DNA of 46,446 nt from the NCBI GenBank assembly GCA_937969495.1, contig CALBVY010000029.1:1-46446 (forward strand), in the 5' to 3' direction. The number at the start of each line of letters is the position of its first letter. Within the stretch, counting starts at the first letter, position 1. The stretch comes from an uncultured Verrucomicrobiales bacterium (GTDB lineage: Bacteria > Verrucomicrobiota > Verrucomicrobiia > Verrucomicrobiales > Akkermansiaceae). Shown here piece by piece: positions 6,915-33,104 of this stretch. The notes under the pieces were generated by a model. The model worked only from the letters and a program-made list of their open reading frames with translations. It was not told the origin of the DNA and made no database searches. The translations under genes and the position numbers were made by a program.

Positions 6915-7789
6915 CCCGTAAAGAACTAGGCAAACTGTATCATCAAGCTTCTGTCTGCACGGAGCGGCTCGCACTGCCGCTACGCAGCCAAGTGTGGCGC
7001 GGTATGGCTGGTGAATTCCAGGGAGCTGGCACGGGCTCATCCATCGACTTCCAAGATCACCGCGCTTATGTGCCTGGTGATGATCCACGGCACATTAACT
7101 GGCAAGCATATGCACGCACGGGTAGCTACTCGATGAAACTTTACCGAGAAGAGGTAAGACCCGTGATCGACATCATTCTGGATGCTTCTGAGTCCATGTT
7201 TTTCGAAACAGAAAAAGCTGCCCGCACCGCAGAGCTTTTTTACTTTGCCGTCATCTCTGCCGTGCAGGCAGGCGCTGCCACACGGCTACACATACTCCGT
7301 GGTGAACATTATCAGGAACTCCCCATGGATGCTGTCCACACGCACCTTTGGTTTGAAAAAATAAAGACCAAGACCACAAATACCCCCTCCGCAGCACTGG
7401 CACTTGATCGAGTACCCATGCGGGGTAATGCCATCAGAGTGCTGATTTCTGATCTGCTTTTTGAAGGTGATCCCAGCCCACCCCTCAAACTCCTTACCCA
7501 CCAGCAAGGCAAGGCGATTTTGTTAGCTCCCTTTTTAGCCAGTGAAGCACACCCTGAGTGGGAGGGAAACTACGAATTTATCGATGCAGAAATTTCCTCG
7601 CGTCATTCACACCGGGTGGAAAAGTCCACTCTCCGCCACTACCACCGCGCCTATGCTGAGCACTTCACACGCTGGCATTCCACCGCCCTGCGCTTCAGCG
7701 CACCTCTGGCTCGAGTCAGTGCTAATCAGGATCTCTTAACGGCCCTAAATGAAGAAGCTGTCTCTACGGGAGCACTCGTCATTTCCTAA
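6911..7789 (+). CDS. DUF58 domain protein (vWA-like MoxR partner)
   Basis: A 292-residue cytoplasmic protein with the DUF58 hallmark YVPGDDPRHINWQAYART at about residues 55-72. A vWA-like fold follows, beginning with the intact metal-site motif DASES (DxSxS) near residue 95. DUF58 proteins are encoded beside moxR in most bacteria and are thought to be its adaptor or substrate. The start overlaps the permease stop (ATGA). The end overlaps the next gene by 41 bases in another frame, so translation of the run is probably coupled. No membrane segment is present. Family assignment is secure; the exact role is not known. Confidence 0.93.
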   Translation: MTRKELGKLYHQASVCTERLALPLRSQVWRGMAGEFQGAGTGSSIDFQDHRAYVPGDDPRHINWQAYARTGSYSMKLYREEVRPVIDIILDASESMFFETEKAARTAELFYFAVISAVQAGAATRLHILRGEHYQELPMDAVHTHLWFEKIKTKTTNTPSAALALDRVPMRGNAIRVLISDLLFEGDPSPPLKLLTHQQGKAILLAPFLASEAHPEWEGNYEFIDAEISSRHSHRVEKSTLRHYHRAYAEHFTRWHSTALRFSAPLARVSANQDLLTALNEEAVSTGALVIS

Positions 7790-9590
7790 TTTTTATCTCA
7801 CTGCTATCAACTTAATCTTCACCAACTTCTACGGCCTCTGGGCGCTAATCGGCATCCCAGCAGTGCTCATTATCCACTTCCTTCAACGGCGTGCCAAGGT
7901 GGAGATAGTGAGCACCTTGTTCTTACTACACCAAACTCAACGAGAGTCGACAAGTGGCAGGAGATTTGATCGGCTCGTTCACTCCATTCCTCTATGGCTT
8001 CAGATCCTCATAGTCCTGTTAGTCACATGGCTACTAGTGCAACCAAAATACATCAAAGCAAAGTCTACTCAACGAATAGCAATTGTGTTAGATAGCTCTG
8101 CTTCCATGCGAGTCTTTAAAAAGAAAATCCCAGAAGTACTCCAGCGAGAAATTTCCAGACTACAGGGAAATGCTGCCAACATCGAAATTTGGCTAATAGA
8201 ATCTGATCCCTCAAAAACAAAAATCTACCAAGGAACTTCCAAAGAAGATATGTTACTGGCTTTAGAAAACTGGCAGCCCAGCTCAGGAGCCACCGACTTC
8301 AGTAACACCCTACGCGTAGCACGGAGCTTAGTGGGCGCAGAAGGCGCCATCAGCTATATTACCGATATTACTCCACAAAGCCCTGCACCTTATAACAGCT
8401 CCAGCATCGCTATTGGTGCACCTTCTGACAACTGCGGCTTCACAGGCGTTACTTTTGAGAAAAACAGCAAAGATCTCATCTGGAAAGCCATCGTTAGAAA
8501 TTACTCTAACACAGAACAAACCCGAACATGGCATCTTGAAACAGCAACGGGTAAAAGCAGTAGTAAAAGTATCACCCTTGCCGCGGGTAGCCTGACTACA
8601 CTTCAGGGAGTATTCCCTGCGAATCAATCTCGCTGCCGCTTACAGCTCAGTGGCGACGCCTTTGATCTTGATGACACTCTCCCCCTCGTCCGCCCGGCAC
8701 CTAAGCCGCTCATTATCACATCTAATCTTCCGCAAGAAATAGCCAAACTTGGCGAAAGAATAACTGCGAGTTTCCCCAATCTCAAAGCTGTCACCGCTAA
8801 TGCTGATCTCGTTATCACCTCCACAGATACCACACCCAAGGAGCAGCACCTTATCGTTTTCCCACAAGACAAAGTAAAAAACCGCCCCTATTTAACAGGA
8901 AATATTGTCGCCACCAAACACCACCTCACTCAGGGCCTCAACTGGCAGACACTTTTAGCCCGAAACAGCATCTCTATCCCACACGATCATGAAGATGAAG
9001 TACTACTCTGGCAGGGAGATCGCGCTCTCATCTTCCTCCGCACTCACCCCCAATCTAAAAACAAGGCCCTAATATTCAACTTTGACATCTATCAATCTAA
9101 CGGAATGAAGCAACCTGCTCTTGTCATCCTCATGCTCCGCTTCTGCGAACAGCTAAGAAGTGAAAAAATCGCACCAGAGACAAAACTCACCGAAACATCA
9201 GAACCTCTTTCTTTTAGCTATCAATCAGCACAAGATGCGCCACCTTTAATTTATACCACAACCTCCCTCGATGGCCAAATCATCTCTAGCAAATCCACCC
9301 GTGGAGATGACATAACAGCACCAGGAACTCCTGGGTTTTTCACCATTCAACAAGGCGAGCAAGCCCTACTAAGTTCCGCTACCTATTTTGCCGATACTCG
9401 GGAGGCCGATTTCTCTGAGTGCTCGACTGGTGAAATACTCGCCAGCAACTTGGCCACAGCTGTAGACCGCCATACCCATGATGATCACCTGTGGCGAGTC
9501 TGGGCATGCCTCATCCTCGTAACACTCCTCTTGGCCTGGCACTTCACTCGCTCAAGAAAAGTCTCCTCGCCTCAAAAACAGAGACGCTAA
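7749..9590 (+). CDS. BatA-type membrane protein with vWA domain
   Basis: A 613-residue protein with the BatA-type N-terminus: a hydrophobic segment (about residues 27-46) followed by FLQRRAKVEIVSTLFLL, then a second helix near 78-97. A vWA domain follows with the metal-site motif DSSAS near residue 117. A beta-rich region, an amidotransferase-like region and a final helix (about 588-605) with a basic tail complete it. BatA/BatB-type proteins are inner-membrane vWA proteins that work with MoxR. The ATG at 7749 lies inside the DUF58 gene (41-base overlap). The family motif begins only about 25 residues in, so the true start could be a little downstream, but no better start codon is visible. Confidence 0.88.
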   Translation: MKKLSLREHSSFPNFYLTAINLIFTNFYGLWALIGIPAVLIIHFLQRRAKVEIVSTLFLLHQTQRESTSGRRFDRLVHSIPLWLQILIVLLVTWLLVQPKYIKAKSTQRIAIVLDSSASMRVFKKKIPEVLQREISRLQGNAANIEIWLIESDPSKTKIYQGTSKEDMLLALENWQPSSGATDFSNTLRVARSLVGAEGAISYITDITPQSPAPYNSSSIAIGAPSDNCGFTGVTFEKNSKDLIWKAIVRNYSNTEQTRTWHLETATGKSSSKSITLAAGSLTTLQGVFPANQSRCRLQLSGDAFDLDDTLPLVRPAPKPLIITSNLPQEIAKLGERITASFPNLKAVTANADLVITSTDTTPKEQHLIVFPQDKVKNRPYLTGNIVATKHHLTQGLNWQTLLARNSISIPHDHEDEVLLWQGDRALIFLRTHPQSKNKALIFNFDIYQSNGMKQPALVILMLRFCEQLRSEKIAPETKLTETSEPLSFSYQSAQDAPPLIYTTTSLDGQIISSKSTRGDDITAPGTPGFFTIQQGEQALLSSATYFADTREADFSECSTGEILASNLATAVDRHTHDDHLWRVWACLILVTLLLAWHFTRSRKVSSPQKQRR

Positions 9591-9604
9591 AGATCCTCAG
9601 CAAC

Positions 9605-11161
9605 TTATGGCGCAAAGGTATCTGTGCGGAATGGGTATGCAGGTAATCCTGTAGCATTGACTAAATTAACAACCGGCTTCCCAGCAAAGGCATAACGAAC
9701 GTAAAGAGGTTTCTTAAGTTTAGATGACCGGAGCACCACCGTGTTACCGTTGATTTTGGCTTCGGCCTTTATCCATTTTTTAGAGTCGTCTGCTAGCCAA
9801 AATGCCGTGGGGGCATCTCCATTATTTGTTTTCAGGCCATCTGCATAATCAAAATAGACCACTAGGTGACCATTTTTGTGTTCAACCTTCTTCATGGTGG
9901 GACCCTGCGCCACAATCTTCATATCTAAGGTATCGCGAGCTGCGAGAAGTGCGAGACGTTTGCCGATGGGTAGTTTATCTTTGGGGTGGATATCGGTTAA
10001 GTGACCAAGGTCGATTGTGTTAGTGACGGAGGTATTTTCCAGGTCCAAGGCTTTGAGTTGTGACTCACGCATCCATGCCCATGAGTGAGCAGCTGGATGC
10101 TCAGGACCATTTCCCTTACCTCCCTTTAACGTCTTCCCATACCCGGGCAACATAACGATTTGAAACTGCATAGCATCATTACCCCATTCCGCTCGGTAGC
10201 GCTTAATCCACTGCTTCAAGGTCTCGCCATACTTAAGAATACCAGAGTGCCTAGCATACCATAAACGTTTAGACATGGCATGCATGGACTGGGTATTTCG
10301 TTCGCCTTGGTACCAGACGAATCCTCGACAAGCATAAGGTGCCAACGGATGAATCATGGCATTGTAGAGAATATTAGTCTGCCTGCGTAAAAAGACATCA
10401 TCATTTAATCTCCAAGGCCTTTTTCCTTCAAGGATCGCCTTAATCTTTCCTCGCCTTTTAGTGTCCGCATCAAACTCCTCCATCATCGTTTTAAAATGCG
10501 GCACTGTCTCCATCATATCACGCGGCATCCACGCCTCGAGTGACGAACTACCCCATGAAGCATGAATAATCCCAACAGGCACATTAGCAGACTTCTGAAG
10601 ATAATAAGCAAATGCCATAGCAACGGCACTAGTCGGTAGCGTATCACTCCATTGACCCTCACATCTGTCCTGCTCCTCGAATGCCACCATTCGGGTTACC
10701 TCAAAAGCTCGGATATTTTTCGCGCGCTGAACCAGTGGCTGAAGGTCTGGAATGTTAGTATGCTCCATCTCCATATTTGATTGCCCAGAACAAATCCACA
10801 CTTCGCCCACAAGAATATCGTTAAGTTTAAGAACTGAAGATCCTGCAGAGCTAATGGATAGAGTTTGGGGTTCTACTGAAGCTTTTAAAGGTGCTAAGTC
10901 GACTCTCCATTTCCCACTATCATCGGCCGTAGTAACTTTTGTTTGCCCAGCAAAATTCACCGTCACCTCCGAACCTGCAACTGCAGTCCCCCAGACAGGC
11001 ATTAGCATATCACGCTGCAACACCGCATGATCGGTAAACGGCGAAGCAATCGTTAATTTAGCAAAAGCTACGGCTGGCACGAATGCCACAACTAACATAA
11101 ATAATGGCAGAGTAGCTCTGAGTAGATAAGTTTTTTTCATATTACATTGATCAAGCACCAT
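9605..11161 (-). CDS. Secreted sialate O-acetylesterase (SASA/DUF303 family)
   Basis: An SGNH-type carbohydrate esterase of 518 residues, predicted to remove O-acetyl groups from sialic acids or related glycans outside the cytoplasm. A signal peptide is clear (hydrophobic core about 17-33, cleavage after AFA). A beta-sandwich of about 85 residues follows, then the nucleophile block CSGQSNMEME (Ser128). The C-terminal block DIHPKDKLPIG holds the catalytic His and Asp. The start at 11161 has AGGG about 8 bases upstream. An alternative ATG at 11140 (MKKTYLL) gives a more standard signal peptide. It runs convergent to the BatA-like gene (14 bp gap) and divergent from the next vWA gene, so it interrupts the module on the opposite strand. 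Verrucomicrobia and Planctomycetes often carry many copies for degrading algal or host glycans. Confidence 0.93.
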   Translation of the reverse strand: MVLDQCNMKKTYLLRATLPLFMLVVAFVPAVAFAKLTIASPFTDHAVLQRDMLMPVWGTAVAGSEVTVNFAGQTKVTTADDSGKWRVDLAPLKASVEPQTLSISSAGSSVLKLNDILVGEVWICSGQSNMEMEHTNIPDLQPLVQRAKNIRAFEVTRMVAFEEQDRCEGQWSDTLPTSAVAMAFAYYLQKSANVPVGIIHASWGSSSLEAWMPRDMMETVPHFKTMMEEFDADTKRRGKIKAILEGKRPWRLNDDVFLRRQTNILYNAMIHPLAPYACRGFVWYQGERNTQSMHAMSKRLWYARHSGILKYGETLKQWIKRYRAEWGNDAMQFQIVMLPGYGKTLKGGKGNGPEHPAAHSWAWMRESQLKALDLENTSVTNTIDLGHLTDIHPKDKLPIGKRLALLAARDTLDMKIVAQGPTMKKVEHKNGHLVVYFDYADGLKTNNGDAPTAFWLADDSKKWIKAEAKINGNTVVLRSSKLKKPLYVRYAFAGKPVVNLVNATGLPAYPFRTDTFAP

Positions 11162-11329
11162 CGCTGACCCTAAAAAGGATAATCTGAGAGTCCCTTTAAA
11201 GCAAGCCCTTTACTTTTCATGGCAAGCCAATCTCAAGGCTGCCATCATATAAGATGTAAGATAATTTGTTCGTAATTTGACCTCAGAGGTATTGCAATCT
11301 TCTGACAGATAGTCAGTATCGTTTCATTC

Positions 11330-14017
11330 ATGTCTTTCAGTGCACCAGAGTGGTTTTTCCTCTTACCTGTTTTTATTTTACTAGGTCTTGTTTGGAAATC
11401 CGTGCAACTAAGGAAGCCTTTACGCATTTTAATTATCTTAACACTCACTTTACTCCTCGTAGACCCGCGCATTACTCGCCAACAGGACGCGCTTGATCTC
11501 TGGGTAATGTTAGATCGCTCAGAATCCACAGAAGACCTGGTGGGCAAAGGCCTCCCAGAGTGGCGCAAACTACTAGAGGACTCCAAACCTTCACGCCGTG
11601 ATAAACTCCGATTTATCGACTACGCCGCTGAAGTAGTGGAGCAAAAACCTGGAACTGAAACAGCGGTATTCACCGGTAGCCGTATGCTCACAAGGACAAA
11701 TCTGGCACTCCAGAACATCATGGCCATGACAGCGAAAGATCGGCCATCAAGAGTGCTTATCTTTAGCGATGGTTATGCCACAGAACCCATTGCCGATGCC
11801 GCAGCAAAACTCTCACGCATGGGAATACCGTTAGACTTCCGCCTCGTGCGGGAAGAAACCGCAGATGACTTCCGTGTAGCACGTCTCCACACCCCTACCC
11901 GAAGTCAAGTAGGCGAGCCTTTTTTGCTAGACGTAACAGTCCGTGGTTACACAGATGCAACCGTACCCTTGTTAATTAAGCGTAATGGCCAAACCCTCTC
12001 TCAGACCACTGTCCAAATAATAGGCGGAACTGGTAAAGCCGAGTTCACAGACCGGATCACCCGTAGCGGATCATACGAATACACAGCGGAAATCATCCCT
12101 GAAAAAGATGCCTATCCAGGAAATAACCAGATGAAGCGATGGACCGAAGTTACAGGAGGTCCTCGTGTCTTACTGGTAACCAAATACATCAATGACCCGC
12201 TCGCCACCGCACTGAAAGACCAAGATTATGATGTTCAAGTAGTCACAGAGCCCGGCAGCCTACGCGTAGGTCAGCTAGCGGGCGCAAGATCTGTGGTATT
12301 TAATAATGTCCCCGCCTTTGAAATACCTTCGGCTTTTCAGGACGCTCTCAACTTCTATGTTAAAGAACAAGGCGGCAGCTTTCTCATGGTCGGAGGAAAA
12401 CAATCATTTGGCGCTGGCGGCTATTTCCAATCAGCCATTGATCCCTTGTTACCCGTGTCCATGGAATTAAAAAACGAACACCGCAAGCTCTCCGTAGCGA
12501 TGGCTATTGTGATGGATCGCTCAGGCTCCATGTCTATGTCAGCGGGGGCTGGGAAAACTAAAATGGATCTCGCAAATACAGGAGCCATACGTGCTGTAGA
12601 GCTCCTAGGAATGATGGATCAGATCACTGTTTTTGCGGTGGATAGCCACGCTCACAAAATGGTGCCACTGATAGAGATCAAGGATAAGAAAAATACTCTC
12701 ATCGGAAAAATCCGGAAAATCCAATCACAAGGAGGAGGCATCTTCGTCTATAATGGTATGTTTGCAGCTTGGCAAGAACTCAAGAAATCCAACGCCGGCA
12801 CGCGACATATGATTCTTTTTTCAGATGCTGCGGACTCGGAGGAGCCTGGTGAATACCGTAGACTGCTAGCAGAAATGACCAAGGAAGGCGCCACCGTTTC
12901 CGTCATTGGCTTAGGAACTCCAGCAGACCCAGATGCAAAACTCCTCCAAGACATCGCTAAACAAGGAAAAGGAAGGTGCTTCTTTACCACTCGTCCTGCT
13001 GATATCCCACGACTTTTTGCTCAAGAAACTGTTACCATAGCGCGCTCTGCTTTTATCAAAGATCCAGTAGGCACAGTCGCCACGGGCAAATGGAGTGAAA
13101 TATCAGACAGACCTTTCAAATGGCTTCCACAAGCTGATGCATACAATCTCTCCTACGCTCGTAGTGACGCCACCACATCTCTCAGCACAACAGATGAATA
13201 CTTAGCGCCACTCGTGGCACACGCTAGGCGCGGCATTGGTCGGACAGCTGCCGTATCCTTTCCGCTAGGTGGAAAATATTCATCAAAGGTTCGAGCATGG
13301 CCACAGTATGGAGACTTCATCCAGACACTAACACAATGGCTCATGGGAGACCAACTCCCACCAGGCATAGGACTACGTCACCGCCTCGAAGGTACCCGCC
13401 TCACCATTGATTTACTTTATGACCATGAAGAATGGGGAAAAAAATTCGCCATTCATCCACCACGCATCAAGCTTCTCGATGGTGACACTACAGGCACACC
13501 ATACGAAATCGCATGGAAGCGTATCGCCCCAGGTAGATTTTCACTAACAAGAGACCTCGAAGAAGGCACCCTCATCCGCGGAGCTATTCAAACTGGCGAA
13601 CACGCCATCCCCTTCGGACCCATTATTGTAGGCTCTAGCACGGAATGGGCGTTCGACCCAGACCGCCTTGCCGAGCTTCGTTCCGTATCAGCTCAAACAG
13701 GCGGCAGAGAGCTCATCGACCTCTCGAAGGCATGGCTACGCCCTCCAGTTATTTATGATGCCGATATCCGCATCCCCCTACTCATCATCGCCCTCACTCT
13801 TATCATGTTAGAAACTCTCGTAACACGCACTGGATGGAAGATCCCTCTCCCAGCACTAGGCAATATGGGTAAAAAAACAACCTCCACAAAAATCAAACCT
13901 AAGCCAGAGCCAGAAAAATCCAGTGCAGCCACCCAAGAGCAGCCTAACATATCACAACCAACACCTCCCAGCAGCAGCCGGAGCTCACGTTTTGATCGCG
14001 CCAAACGTAAAAAATAA
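11330..14017 (+). CDS. Large membrane protein with two vWA domains and an amidotransferase-like domain
   Basis: An 895-residue protein with two N-terminal helices (about 7-22 and 31-46) as in BatA/BatB. A first vWA-like domain starts at DRSES (D62). A beta-sandwich follows, then a glutamine-amidotransferase-like Rossmann region (about 275-385, with GGSFLMVGGKQSFGAGG). A second vWA domain has the canonical site MDRSGS (395-400). A final helix lies near 825-842, and the tail is low-complexity, Lys/Pro/Ser-rich (about 850-895). No amidotransferase nucleophile is evident, so that domain is probably non-enzymatic. It looks like the last member of the MoxR/DUF58/vWA set, separated from it by the divergent esterase gene. 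The start at 11330 has no Shine-Dalgarno motif; 168 bp upstream are non-coding and could hold its own promoter. Confidence 0.87.
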   Translation: MSFSAPEWFFLLPVFILLGLVWKSVQLRKPLRILIILTLTLLLVDPRITRQQDALDLWVMLDRSESTEDLVGKGLPEWRKLLEDSKPSRRDKLRFIDYAAEVVEQKPGTETAVFTGSRMLTRTNLALQNIMAMTAKDRPSRVLIFSDGYATEPIADAAAKLSRMGIPLDFRLVREETADDFRVARLHTPTRSQVGEPFLLDVTVRGYTDATVPLLIKRNGQTLSQTTVQIIGGTGKAEFTDRITRSGSYEYTAEIIPEKDAYPGNNQMKRWTEVTGGPRVLLVTKYINDPLATALKDQDYDVQVVTEPGSLRVGQLAGARSVVFNNVPAFEIPSAFQDALNFYVKEQGGSFLMVGGKQSFGAGGYFQSAIDPLLPVSMELKNEHRKLSVAMAIVMDRSGSMSMSAGAGKTKMDLANTGAIRAVELLGMMDQITVFAVDSHAHKMVPLIEIKDKKNTLIGKIRKIQSQGGGIFVYNGMFAAWQELKKSNAGTRHMILFSDAADSEEPGEYRRLLAEMTKEGATVSVIGLGTPADPDAKLLQDIAKQGKGRCFFTTRPADIPRLFAQETVTIARSAFIKDPVGTVATGKWSEISDRPFKWLPQADAYNLSYARSDATTSLSTTDEYLAPLVAHARRGIGRTAAVSFPLGGKYSSKVRAWPQYGDFIQTLTQWLMGDQLPPGIGLRHRLEGTRLTIDLLYDHEEWGKKFAIHPPRIKLLDGDTTGTPYEIAWKRIAPGRFSLTRDLEEGTLIRGAIQTGEHAIPFGPIIVGSSTEWAFDPDRLAELRSVSAQTGGRELIDLSKAWLRPPVIYDADIRIPLLIIALTLIMLETLVTRTGWKIPLPALGNMGKKTTSTKIKPKPEPEKSSAATQEQPNISQPTPPSSSRSSRFDRAKRKK

Positions 14018-31580: not shown

Positions 31581-33104
31581 CTAACGTCGCTTTTTACGCA
31601 GGAAGGGTGGTATATCAAGGTCTTCACCTTCATGGAAATTCGGGCTTTCACCTTCAAACTTACCCTTTGGCCCGCCATCAAGCTCAAGTTCAGACTGGGA
31701 TGGCGCCACGGACTTACGGCGTGGTGGGAGATGAGATTTTCTCTCTGGTTCATTTTCTGGCTCAATACTTCCAATGGCATCCTCCTCTAGCTCAGCTGAT
31801 ACCGGCTCACCTTCTTGAGCATCATCCTCTTGAGTGAGAGGATCTGCAAGCAGAGGAATATCTTCGCTATCATGCTCGGGCTTATCGATCTCTAACTCAA
31901 CCTTCACCTCATCTGCTGTAGCAAAGAATGGATCATCATCCATACTGGATTTTTCAGGCTCAGAATCTTCTCCCATACTAAAGCCCTCGGCAGGCTCCAT
32001 GATAGGCTCCTTCTCAGCAACATCGATCAACTCAGTAGCCACTACGGTAGAAGCCACAGCTTGCTCATTGTCTTCAGCTTCATCTAACTTTTCCTCATTT
32101 GGCAATACCTCATCCTGATGTTCAGGATTTAATTTATCCTCTGGTAGGGCGCTAACGAGGGTAACACTGAGGCTATCACCCATAGCTGGATCAACAGCTG
32201 CGCCAAAAAGAATATGCGCACTAGACGGCACATGCTTAGCCAGCCCACGCATGAGTAACTCAACTTCGTAGAGAGTAAGACTCTCTCCACCACAAATATG
32301 CACCAGCACCGTGGTGGCATCTGCCAGCAAGCTTCCTTTATCAAGTAAAGGACTGGTAAGCGAATTATCCAGTGCAGCTTGAGAGCGATCTTCTCCCTCC
32401 GCAATACCGGAACCAAACAGGCATCGAGAGCGCGTGGTAGACAGAGCAGACATCAAATCATCAAGCCCAACATTGATTAACCCCGGTCTAACAACTAACC
32501 GAGTAACAGCTTTGATCGACTCTGAGATCATCCGATCTGCTGCGGCAAAAGCCTCATGAATCCCCTGCTTCGCCAATACCAGCTCACCCATACGGCCGTT
32601 ATCAAAAGTAACCAGAGCGTTCGAGAGCACGGCGATTTCATTGAGAGCGGTCTCTGCCTGCTCACGACGTCGGGCACCCTCAAAGCTAAATGGCATGGTT
32701 GCAAAAACCACCACAAACGCGCCTTCCTCGCGTGCGATACGGCAGATCAACGGAGCTGCCCCAGAACCTGTACCGCCACCGAGTCCTACACAGAGAAAAA
32801 TCATCTTCCGCTCGCGCAATGAGTCACGGATTTCCTGTTCTGACTCCTGCGCTGCTTTCAACCCAAGATAAGGGTCTCCGCCTGCACCTAGCCCCTTGGT
32901 AAGATTACGACCAATCTGAATTTTCCCTCCCGCTACCGAGCTTGAGAGGGTGCGCATATCTGTATTAATACACATCATCTCAGCCCCTGTCATACCATCA
33001 AGAGCCGCACGATCTAACATATTTGCTCCAGCACCACCGAGTCCGATGATTTTAACTGAAGATTCAGGGATGGTCTGCTGAGGGTCTTTTTCGTAGGAAA
33101 TCAT
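31581..33104 (-). CDS. ftsZ: Cell division protein FtsZ (divergent)
   Basis: FtsZ is the tubulin-like GTPase that forms the division ring. The GTP-binding loops are clear: GLGGAGANM (residues 21-29), NTDMRTL (47-53) and the tubulin signature GLGGGTGSGAA (107-117). The T7 loop reads NVGLDDL (211-217); E. coli has NVDFADV there, so D209 is replaced by glycine while the equivalent of D212 is kept (D216). From about residue 320 a long acidic Glu/Asp-rich linker of about 170 residues leads to a C-terminal peptide DIPPFLRKKRR, which should bind membrane-tether proteins. Total length is 507, longer than the typical 350-400 because of the linker. It is not in a dcw cluster; upstream genes encode a small membrane protein and a TPR protein. 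Confidence 0.95.
   Translation of the reverse strand: MISYEKDPQQTIPESSVKIIGLGGAGANMLDRAALDGMTGAEMMCINTDMRTLSSSVAGGKIQIGRNLTKGLGAGGDPYLGLKAAQESEQEIRDSLRERKMIFLCVGLGGGTGSGAAPLICRIAREEGAFVVVFATMPFSFEGARRREQAETALNEIAVLSNALVTFDNGRMGELVLAKQGIHEAFAAADRMISESIKAVTRLVVRPGLINVGLDDLMSALSTTRSRCLFGSGIAEGEDRSQAALDNSLTSPLLDKGSLLADATTVLVHICGGESLTLYEVELLMRGLAKHVPSSAHILFGAAVDPAMGDSLSVTLVSALPEDKLNPEHQDEVLPNEEKLDEAEDNEQAVASTVVATELIDVAEKEPIMEPAEGFSMGEDSEPEKSSMDDDPFFATADEVKVELEIDKPEHDSEDIPLLADPLTQEDDAQEGEPVSAELEEDAIGSIEPENEPERKSHLPPRRKSVAPSQSELELDGGPKGKFEGESPNFHEGEDLDIPPFLRKKRR

Follow-up and report, generated by a model that had tools for sequence, protein, structure and literature searches.

According to published work, the two aspartates of the T7 loop in FtsZ are conserved between species and hold the attacking water together (PMC8936486). 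In the Staphylococcus aureus protein (SaFtsZ), the side chain of D210, which corresponds to D209 of Escherichia coli FtsZ, swings to place the catalytic water while D213 stays put, and Q48 of the neighboring subunit secures K+ in the loop (PMC8936486). The D210N and D213N changes abolished assembly of SaFtsZ, and the D210N crystal showed no K+ at T7 and a loop that was shifted by 2 Å (PMC8936486). E. coli FtsZ with D209C or Q47K did not support division (PMC13423816), and the D209A protein aggregates in yeast (PMC3684127). These mutant phenotypes count against a working site with one acid.

Verrucomicrobial FtsZs have been noted as the most divergent group (PMC9871819). In Verrucomicrobium spinosum, ftsZ is essential and division occurs by binary fission (PMC12283558). 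The V. spinosum protein was called canonical by Yee et al. (2007), who marked eight deviating residues in a figure, among which the counterpart of D209 may be included (PMC1845146). The main texts of the two V. spinosum articles mention no change in the T7 loop (PMC1845146; PMC12283558). The divergence of verrucomicrobial FtsZ and its long linker are already published; in the literature searched, outside which most subscription papers lie, no report of the T7 pattern in Verrucomicrobia/Verrucomicrobiota was found.

The window, the whole stretch of 46,446 nucleotides of DNA that was analyzed, derives from an uncultured member of the Akkermansiaceae, and its nearest named records are Akkermansiaceae MAGs, Haloferula, Luteolibacter and Roseibacillus. 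The ftsZ gene occupies 31581..33104 on the minus strand, begins with ATG and specifies a protein of 507 aa; the plus strand is closed over the same interval when inspected for open reading frames. The protein matches the Pfam profiles Tubulin (PF00091; 126.8 bits, cut-off 33) and FtsZ_C (PF12327; 66.8 bits, cut-off 27). Its score with the NCBIfam ftsZ equivalog TIGR00065 was 274.4 bits, which is below the curated cut-off of 295.2 that was reached by 13 of 14 named controls and by 0 of 80 further genomes, the latter having been picked among weak or missing matches. Residues 1-330 were modeled with AlphaFold using 63 aligned sequences (pLDDT 89.7, pTM 0.87), and the top PDB match of the model was 7ohk, SaFtsZ with GDP, BeF3 and Mg (TM 0.82/0.87). 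An FtsZ fold is supported by the model, which speaks to predicted structure and not to catalysis. Adjoining ftsZ, the open reading frame at 33195-33845 matches the profile of a putative zinc peptidase (PF04298) with a score of 28.2 bits that is barely over the cut-off of 27. Elsewhere in the window, positions 7749-14017 encode proteins of the BatA-like and von Willebrand factor A types, as found in aerotolerance-type clusters, and several preceding open reading frames have no Pfam match.

Alignment to E. coli FtsZ located the T7 loop at I210-L217 (INVGLDDL; 32454..32477, minus strand), in which Gly213 corresponds to E. coli D209, Asp215 to A211 and Asp216 to D212. Thus, within the canonical two-aspartate set of N207, D209 and D212, the first and third positions are kept as N211 and D216 and the second is Gly213, which bears out the preliminary description of an NVGLDDL loop with glycine in place of D209 and with D212 retained. 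The T2/H2 segment I46-L53 (INTDMRTL; 32946..32969, minus strand) has Asp49 at the position of D45 and Arg51 at that of Q47, and the T3 loop G73-P78 (GAGGDP; 32871..32888, minus strand) has Asp77 at the position of N73. The coordinates of these three segments were derived from residue numbers. Residues of the window protein are named below in its own numbering (N211, G213, D215, D216, R51 and D77) and alignment positions in that of E. coli.

The conservation of these residues was assessed in the window's family, f1 (f and g are working codes for families and genera, and L and G for loci and genomes). The window FtsZ as protein query elicited matches in 138 of 145 family genomes and in 278 of 288 genomes of the phylum. 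In the main family set of 119 loci (L002-L040 and L171-L250), position 209 was Gly in every sequence, and Arg at the Q47 position, Asp at the N73 position, D45 and R142 were equally invariant (119/119 each); position 212 was occupied by Asp in 89 sequences and by Glu in 30. An enlarged set of 141 sequences, in which the main set was joined by the rest of the family loci and by genus g3, possessed Gly at position 209 in 140 cases and Asp or Glu at position 212 in 140. The glycine was encoded by GGC (42), GGG (38), GGA (31) and GGT (29); as some genomes are present in both collections, the count of 121 of 122 unique domains with Gly209 is safer than either 140/141 or the codon numbers. The glycine is fixed while synonymous change proceeds freely over the four codons, and the residue itself is thus judged to be kept by selection in the family. 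The sole family FtsZ without Gly209 is L135 (G003, genus g4; 1.1 Mb, 69% complete), whose T7 loop reads IEVIQL with Glu at position 209 and Gln at position 212.

A profile search with PF00091 in the genome that contains the window (2.47 Mb, 98 contigs, 96.3% complete) produced one match, the window ftsZ, which is the only gene of the tubulin/FtsZ family found there. The suggestions in the preliminary description that relatives might carry a normal D209, or that a second, canonical FtsZ might perform the main work, therefore did not hold: the relatives share the glycine, and no second FtsZ was found in the 96.3%-complete genome. A sequencing error or a paralogue can be ruled out for the same two reasons, namely Gly in 119/119 relatives and a single copy, and retains a negligible probability. 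FtsA of this genome scored over the cut-off on contig C73, and the window is on C29; the usual, although not defining, location of ftsZ beside ftsA consequently is not seen. In G012, from the window's genus, the two genes are ~256 kb apart, and they adjoin in G002 (genus g3) and in G314 and G202 (family f2). Hence, separation of ftsZ from ftsA seems to have taken place in the part of the family that includes the window's genus. Among the FtsZ-like proteins encountered were those encoded by two short, unannotated Listeria phage records (OR849061.1 and OR847077.1), which perhaps represent host or contaminant DNA.

The preliminary description proposed that D215 might act in compensation. By this account, Asp215, located two residues beyond Gly213, took over the role of D209 such that the site retains two acids and the usual working. 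The exchange of D209-A211 for G209-D211 has the expected look of compensation and, in a dereplicated set, Asp at position 211 accompanied Gly209 in 60 of 65 sequences compared with 0 of 118 others. That part of the proposal stands. However, nearly all of the 60 sequences derive from one clade, which makes the association close to a single event. Moreover, 9 of the 141 family sequences have another residue in place of Asp215 (six Gly, two Ala, one Ile), members of the window's own genus among them (L009, L012, L018 and L025), position 211 is Ala in two of six f2 sequences, and Asp211 is missing from other families without D209 (f7, f8, f11, f20, f25, f28 and f43). Asp215 arose with Gly213 and yet was lost in these nine sequences: it may help, but would not be needed, and its takeover of the D209 role is a tentative possibility.

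The T7 loop also was compared across the phylum in a hand-picked sample that represented each family by one or several FtsZs, totaling 269 loci without the duplicate L001. Among 186 sequences in the window's class (families f1-f15), 154 possessed the acid at position 212 only, 27 had D209 only, five had neither and none had both, with the labels of f4 being unreliable because its T7 loop cannot be aligned. When near-identical f1 rows were removed (n = 100), the values were 68, 27, five and none, respectively. In contrast, the remainder of the phylum (n = 83) included 36 sequences with both acids, 31 with D209 only, 11 with the position 212 acid only and five with neither. The four f4 loci (L267-L270) are too divergent in the T7 region to align, and their matches span only approximately the first half of the ftsZ model. 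The class is divided by family: f1, f2, f6, f7, f8, f11 and f14 have the acid at position 212 only, and f3, f5, f9, f10, f12 and f13 have D209 only, their residue at position 212 being Thr, Ala, Ser or Gln. Family f2, which belongs to the order of V. spinosum, has Gly209 in 6/6 sequences. As aligned, the pattern is class-wide, with each sampled FtsZ holding at most one of the two T7 aspartates, and the loss of opposite aspartates by sister families suggests that one acid can suffice.

Controls from outside the phylum comprised E. coli K-12 together with 17 ftsZ stretches taken from records of plasmids (Pseudomonadota, Bacillota, Fusobacteriota, Actinomycetota, Bacteroidota and a Haloarcula). 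D209 was present in 18/18 and D212 in 17/18, the exception being a Marinomonas plasmid protein with His; many of these genes are extra copies on chromids and the set is thus not a sample of main FtsZs, and the Microbacterium row aligned well at T7 only. The fewest changes needed were 13 at position 209 and 13 at position 212 on a 178-row tree, and 12 and 10, respectively, on a 141-row tree built with a mixture model and with long branches removed, counts which are rough because deep support in the trees is uneven. The first tree, which carried a warning of long branches meeting, excluded six very divergent rows (four of f4 and one each of f15 and f32), and the second excluded 15 rows. The majority states of 61 families were both acids in 20, D209 only in 24, the position 212 acid only in 13 and neither in four (Fisher p 0.044, uncorrected for kinship); a rule that one acid is never missing without the other being kept was rejected.

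The numerous changes at both positions might signify instead that constraint on the T7 loop is relaxed, such that it drifts in the phylum as FtsZ matters less and some lineages lose the protein. FtsZ is absent from the related Planctomycetota and Chlamydiota (PMC12283558), and two small genomes of genus g5 in the window's own family (G004 and G017; 1.5-1.6 Mb, ~90% complete) encode FtsA over the cut-off (L279 and L278, respectively) and gave no FtsZ match with two queries. The latter genomes possibly reflect loss of FtsZ within the family, the alternative being incomplete assemblies. Against relaxed constraint, the glycine is fixed in the family despite free synonymous change and ftsZ is essential in V. 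spinosum (PMC12283558); this explanation is improbable.

Candidate partners of the altered loop were evaluated at several positions. Tree-aware tests of coupling between position 209 and positions 47, 73 or 211 had seven pairs to compare on branches with good support and pointed neither to coupling nor away from it. In f1 and f2, position 47 is as a rule Arg, and Gly209 occurs with Gln47 in f6 and f14; Arg47 may thus be a later refinement. As an obligatory partner of Gly209 it was rejected, because Arg or Lys was present at position 47 in 4 of 18 family groups without D209 compared with 16 of 44 with D209; together with Gln47 in f6 and f14, these values speak against phylum-wide coupling of positions 47 and 209. 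Across the phylum, many families have R, K, A, E, S or still other residues where the K+-securing glutamine would stand at position 47, and K+ use by those FtsZs may vary accordingly. Asp77 in the T3 loop (N73 in E. coli) was rejected as a replacement base: although present in 119/119 family sequences, it also occurs in two-aspartate FtsZs of the phylum and in the haloarchaeal control with both aspartates, and the tree-aware pairs yielded nothing. A change of Thr110 to Ser in the tubulin signature is only a lead to the T7 acids, Thr being present in 26 of the 37 sequences that have both acids compared with 14 of 141 others; the column ranked second best of 304 scanned, and the median p of the sign test was 0.375. 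A broader proposal holds that cells of the window's class divide by means of one-acid FtsZs, D212-only or D209-only per lineage and never both, and that in Verrucomicrobiales the neighbor's Arg47 replaces the K+ of T7 to give a K+-independent FtsZ in which the Q47 and D209 changes, each inactivating in E. coli, cooperate. It is considered unlikely.

The favored reading, with a probability of roughly 0.6, is that the window gene specifies the sole FtsZ of the bacterium, a working protein whose T7 loop is rewired and which would hydrolyze GTP via one strictly kept acid. In this reading, the N-x-D-x-A-D loop has been rewired to N-x-G-x-D-D, and the protein most likely still polymerizes and hydrolyzes GTP. 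Asp216 would be the one indispensable T7 acid; its position, that of E. coli D212, is also that of the catalytic glutamate of alpha-tubulin. The catalytic water that is steered in S. aureus by the swinging D210 may here be held by Asp216 and by the T3 backbone of the neighboring subunit, and Arg51 may supply positive charge that the loop otherwise would draw from K+. The single copy, the selected glycine, the kept acid at position 212, the tail motif, the predicted fold and the presence of FtsA elsewhere in the genome favor this reading; the NCBIfam score below its cut-off counts against it, as does the pairing of Gly209 with Gln47 in f6 and f14. Alternatively, the protein might be a weak or non-hydrolyzing FtsZ that acts mainly as a scaffold, with filament turnover that is slow or achieved by other means. 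Slower GTP turnover had been put forward as a possibility in the preliminary description. Inactivation of E. coli FtsZ by D209 and Q47 substitutions and of S. aureus FtsZ by D210N (PMC13423816; PMC8936486) favors this alternative, as does a thaumarchaeal FtsZ without the T7 motif that does not polymerize (PMC3684127). However, the thaumarchaeal protein has lost the GTP motif too, whereas the signature motif, R142, D45 and the acid at position 212 are kept throughout the window's family, and a scaffold of this type is improbable.

An acidic variable linker of 174 aa (residues 323-496; 31617..32138, minus strand) contains 55 acidic and 13 basic residues. It is followed by a C-terminal tail of the FtsA-binding type that ends the protein with DLDIPPFLRKKRR (31584..31622, minus strand), in which the motif DIPPFLR starts at residue 497; the conserved tail of FtsZ is therefore present. 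The length of about 170 residues given in the preliminary description was close, but the linker is not unusual for the family: values in f1 ranged from 126 to 407 with a median of 211 among the 119 of 129 sequences that have a recognized tail motif, the other ten rows, several of which are cut at contig ends, having no linker value. Linkers or tails outside f1, g3 and f2 mostly were 34-145 residues. Judged from these lengths, the long acidic linker is a trait of the lineage.

Overall, the alignments describe a variation in the active site of FtsZ that is real, selected and class-wide, and the window gene is an ordinary example of it. An essential division machine seems to run in more than one way in nature. 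A class without any sampled two-aspartate FtsZ, in which sister lineages keep opposite acids, supplies naturally occurring single mutants that are expected to be viable and that make the role of each T7 aspartate directly testable. Moreover, the absence of one T7 aspartate is a doubtful ground for calling an FtsZ homologue dead.

The window FtsZ shares with that of V. spinosum the order, the GGGTGSG signature and a long C-terminal extension, which in V. spinosum is described as disordered and essential in a protein ranked among the most divergent FtsZs of bacteria (PMC1845146; PMC12283558). In Nitrosopumilus maritimus FtsZ, the T7 motif likewise is not conserved (PMC3684127). Unlike the window protein, N. 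maritimus FtsZ also is without the GTP-binding motif and does not polymerize, and Cdv proteins are thought to divide the cells. The canonical FtsZs of E. coli and S. aureus have the GTPase fold, D45, R142, D212 and the tail motif in common with the window FtsZ, which differs from them by Gly for D209, Arg for Q47, Asp for A211 and Asp for N73. In alpha-tubulin, the catalytic acid, E254, occupies the D212 position and an Asp is kept at the D209 position; the window FtsZ therefore matches alpha-tubulin in the former acid and differs from it in the latter.
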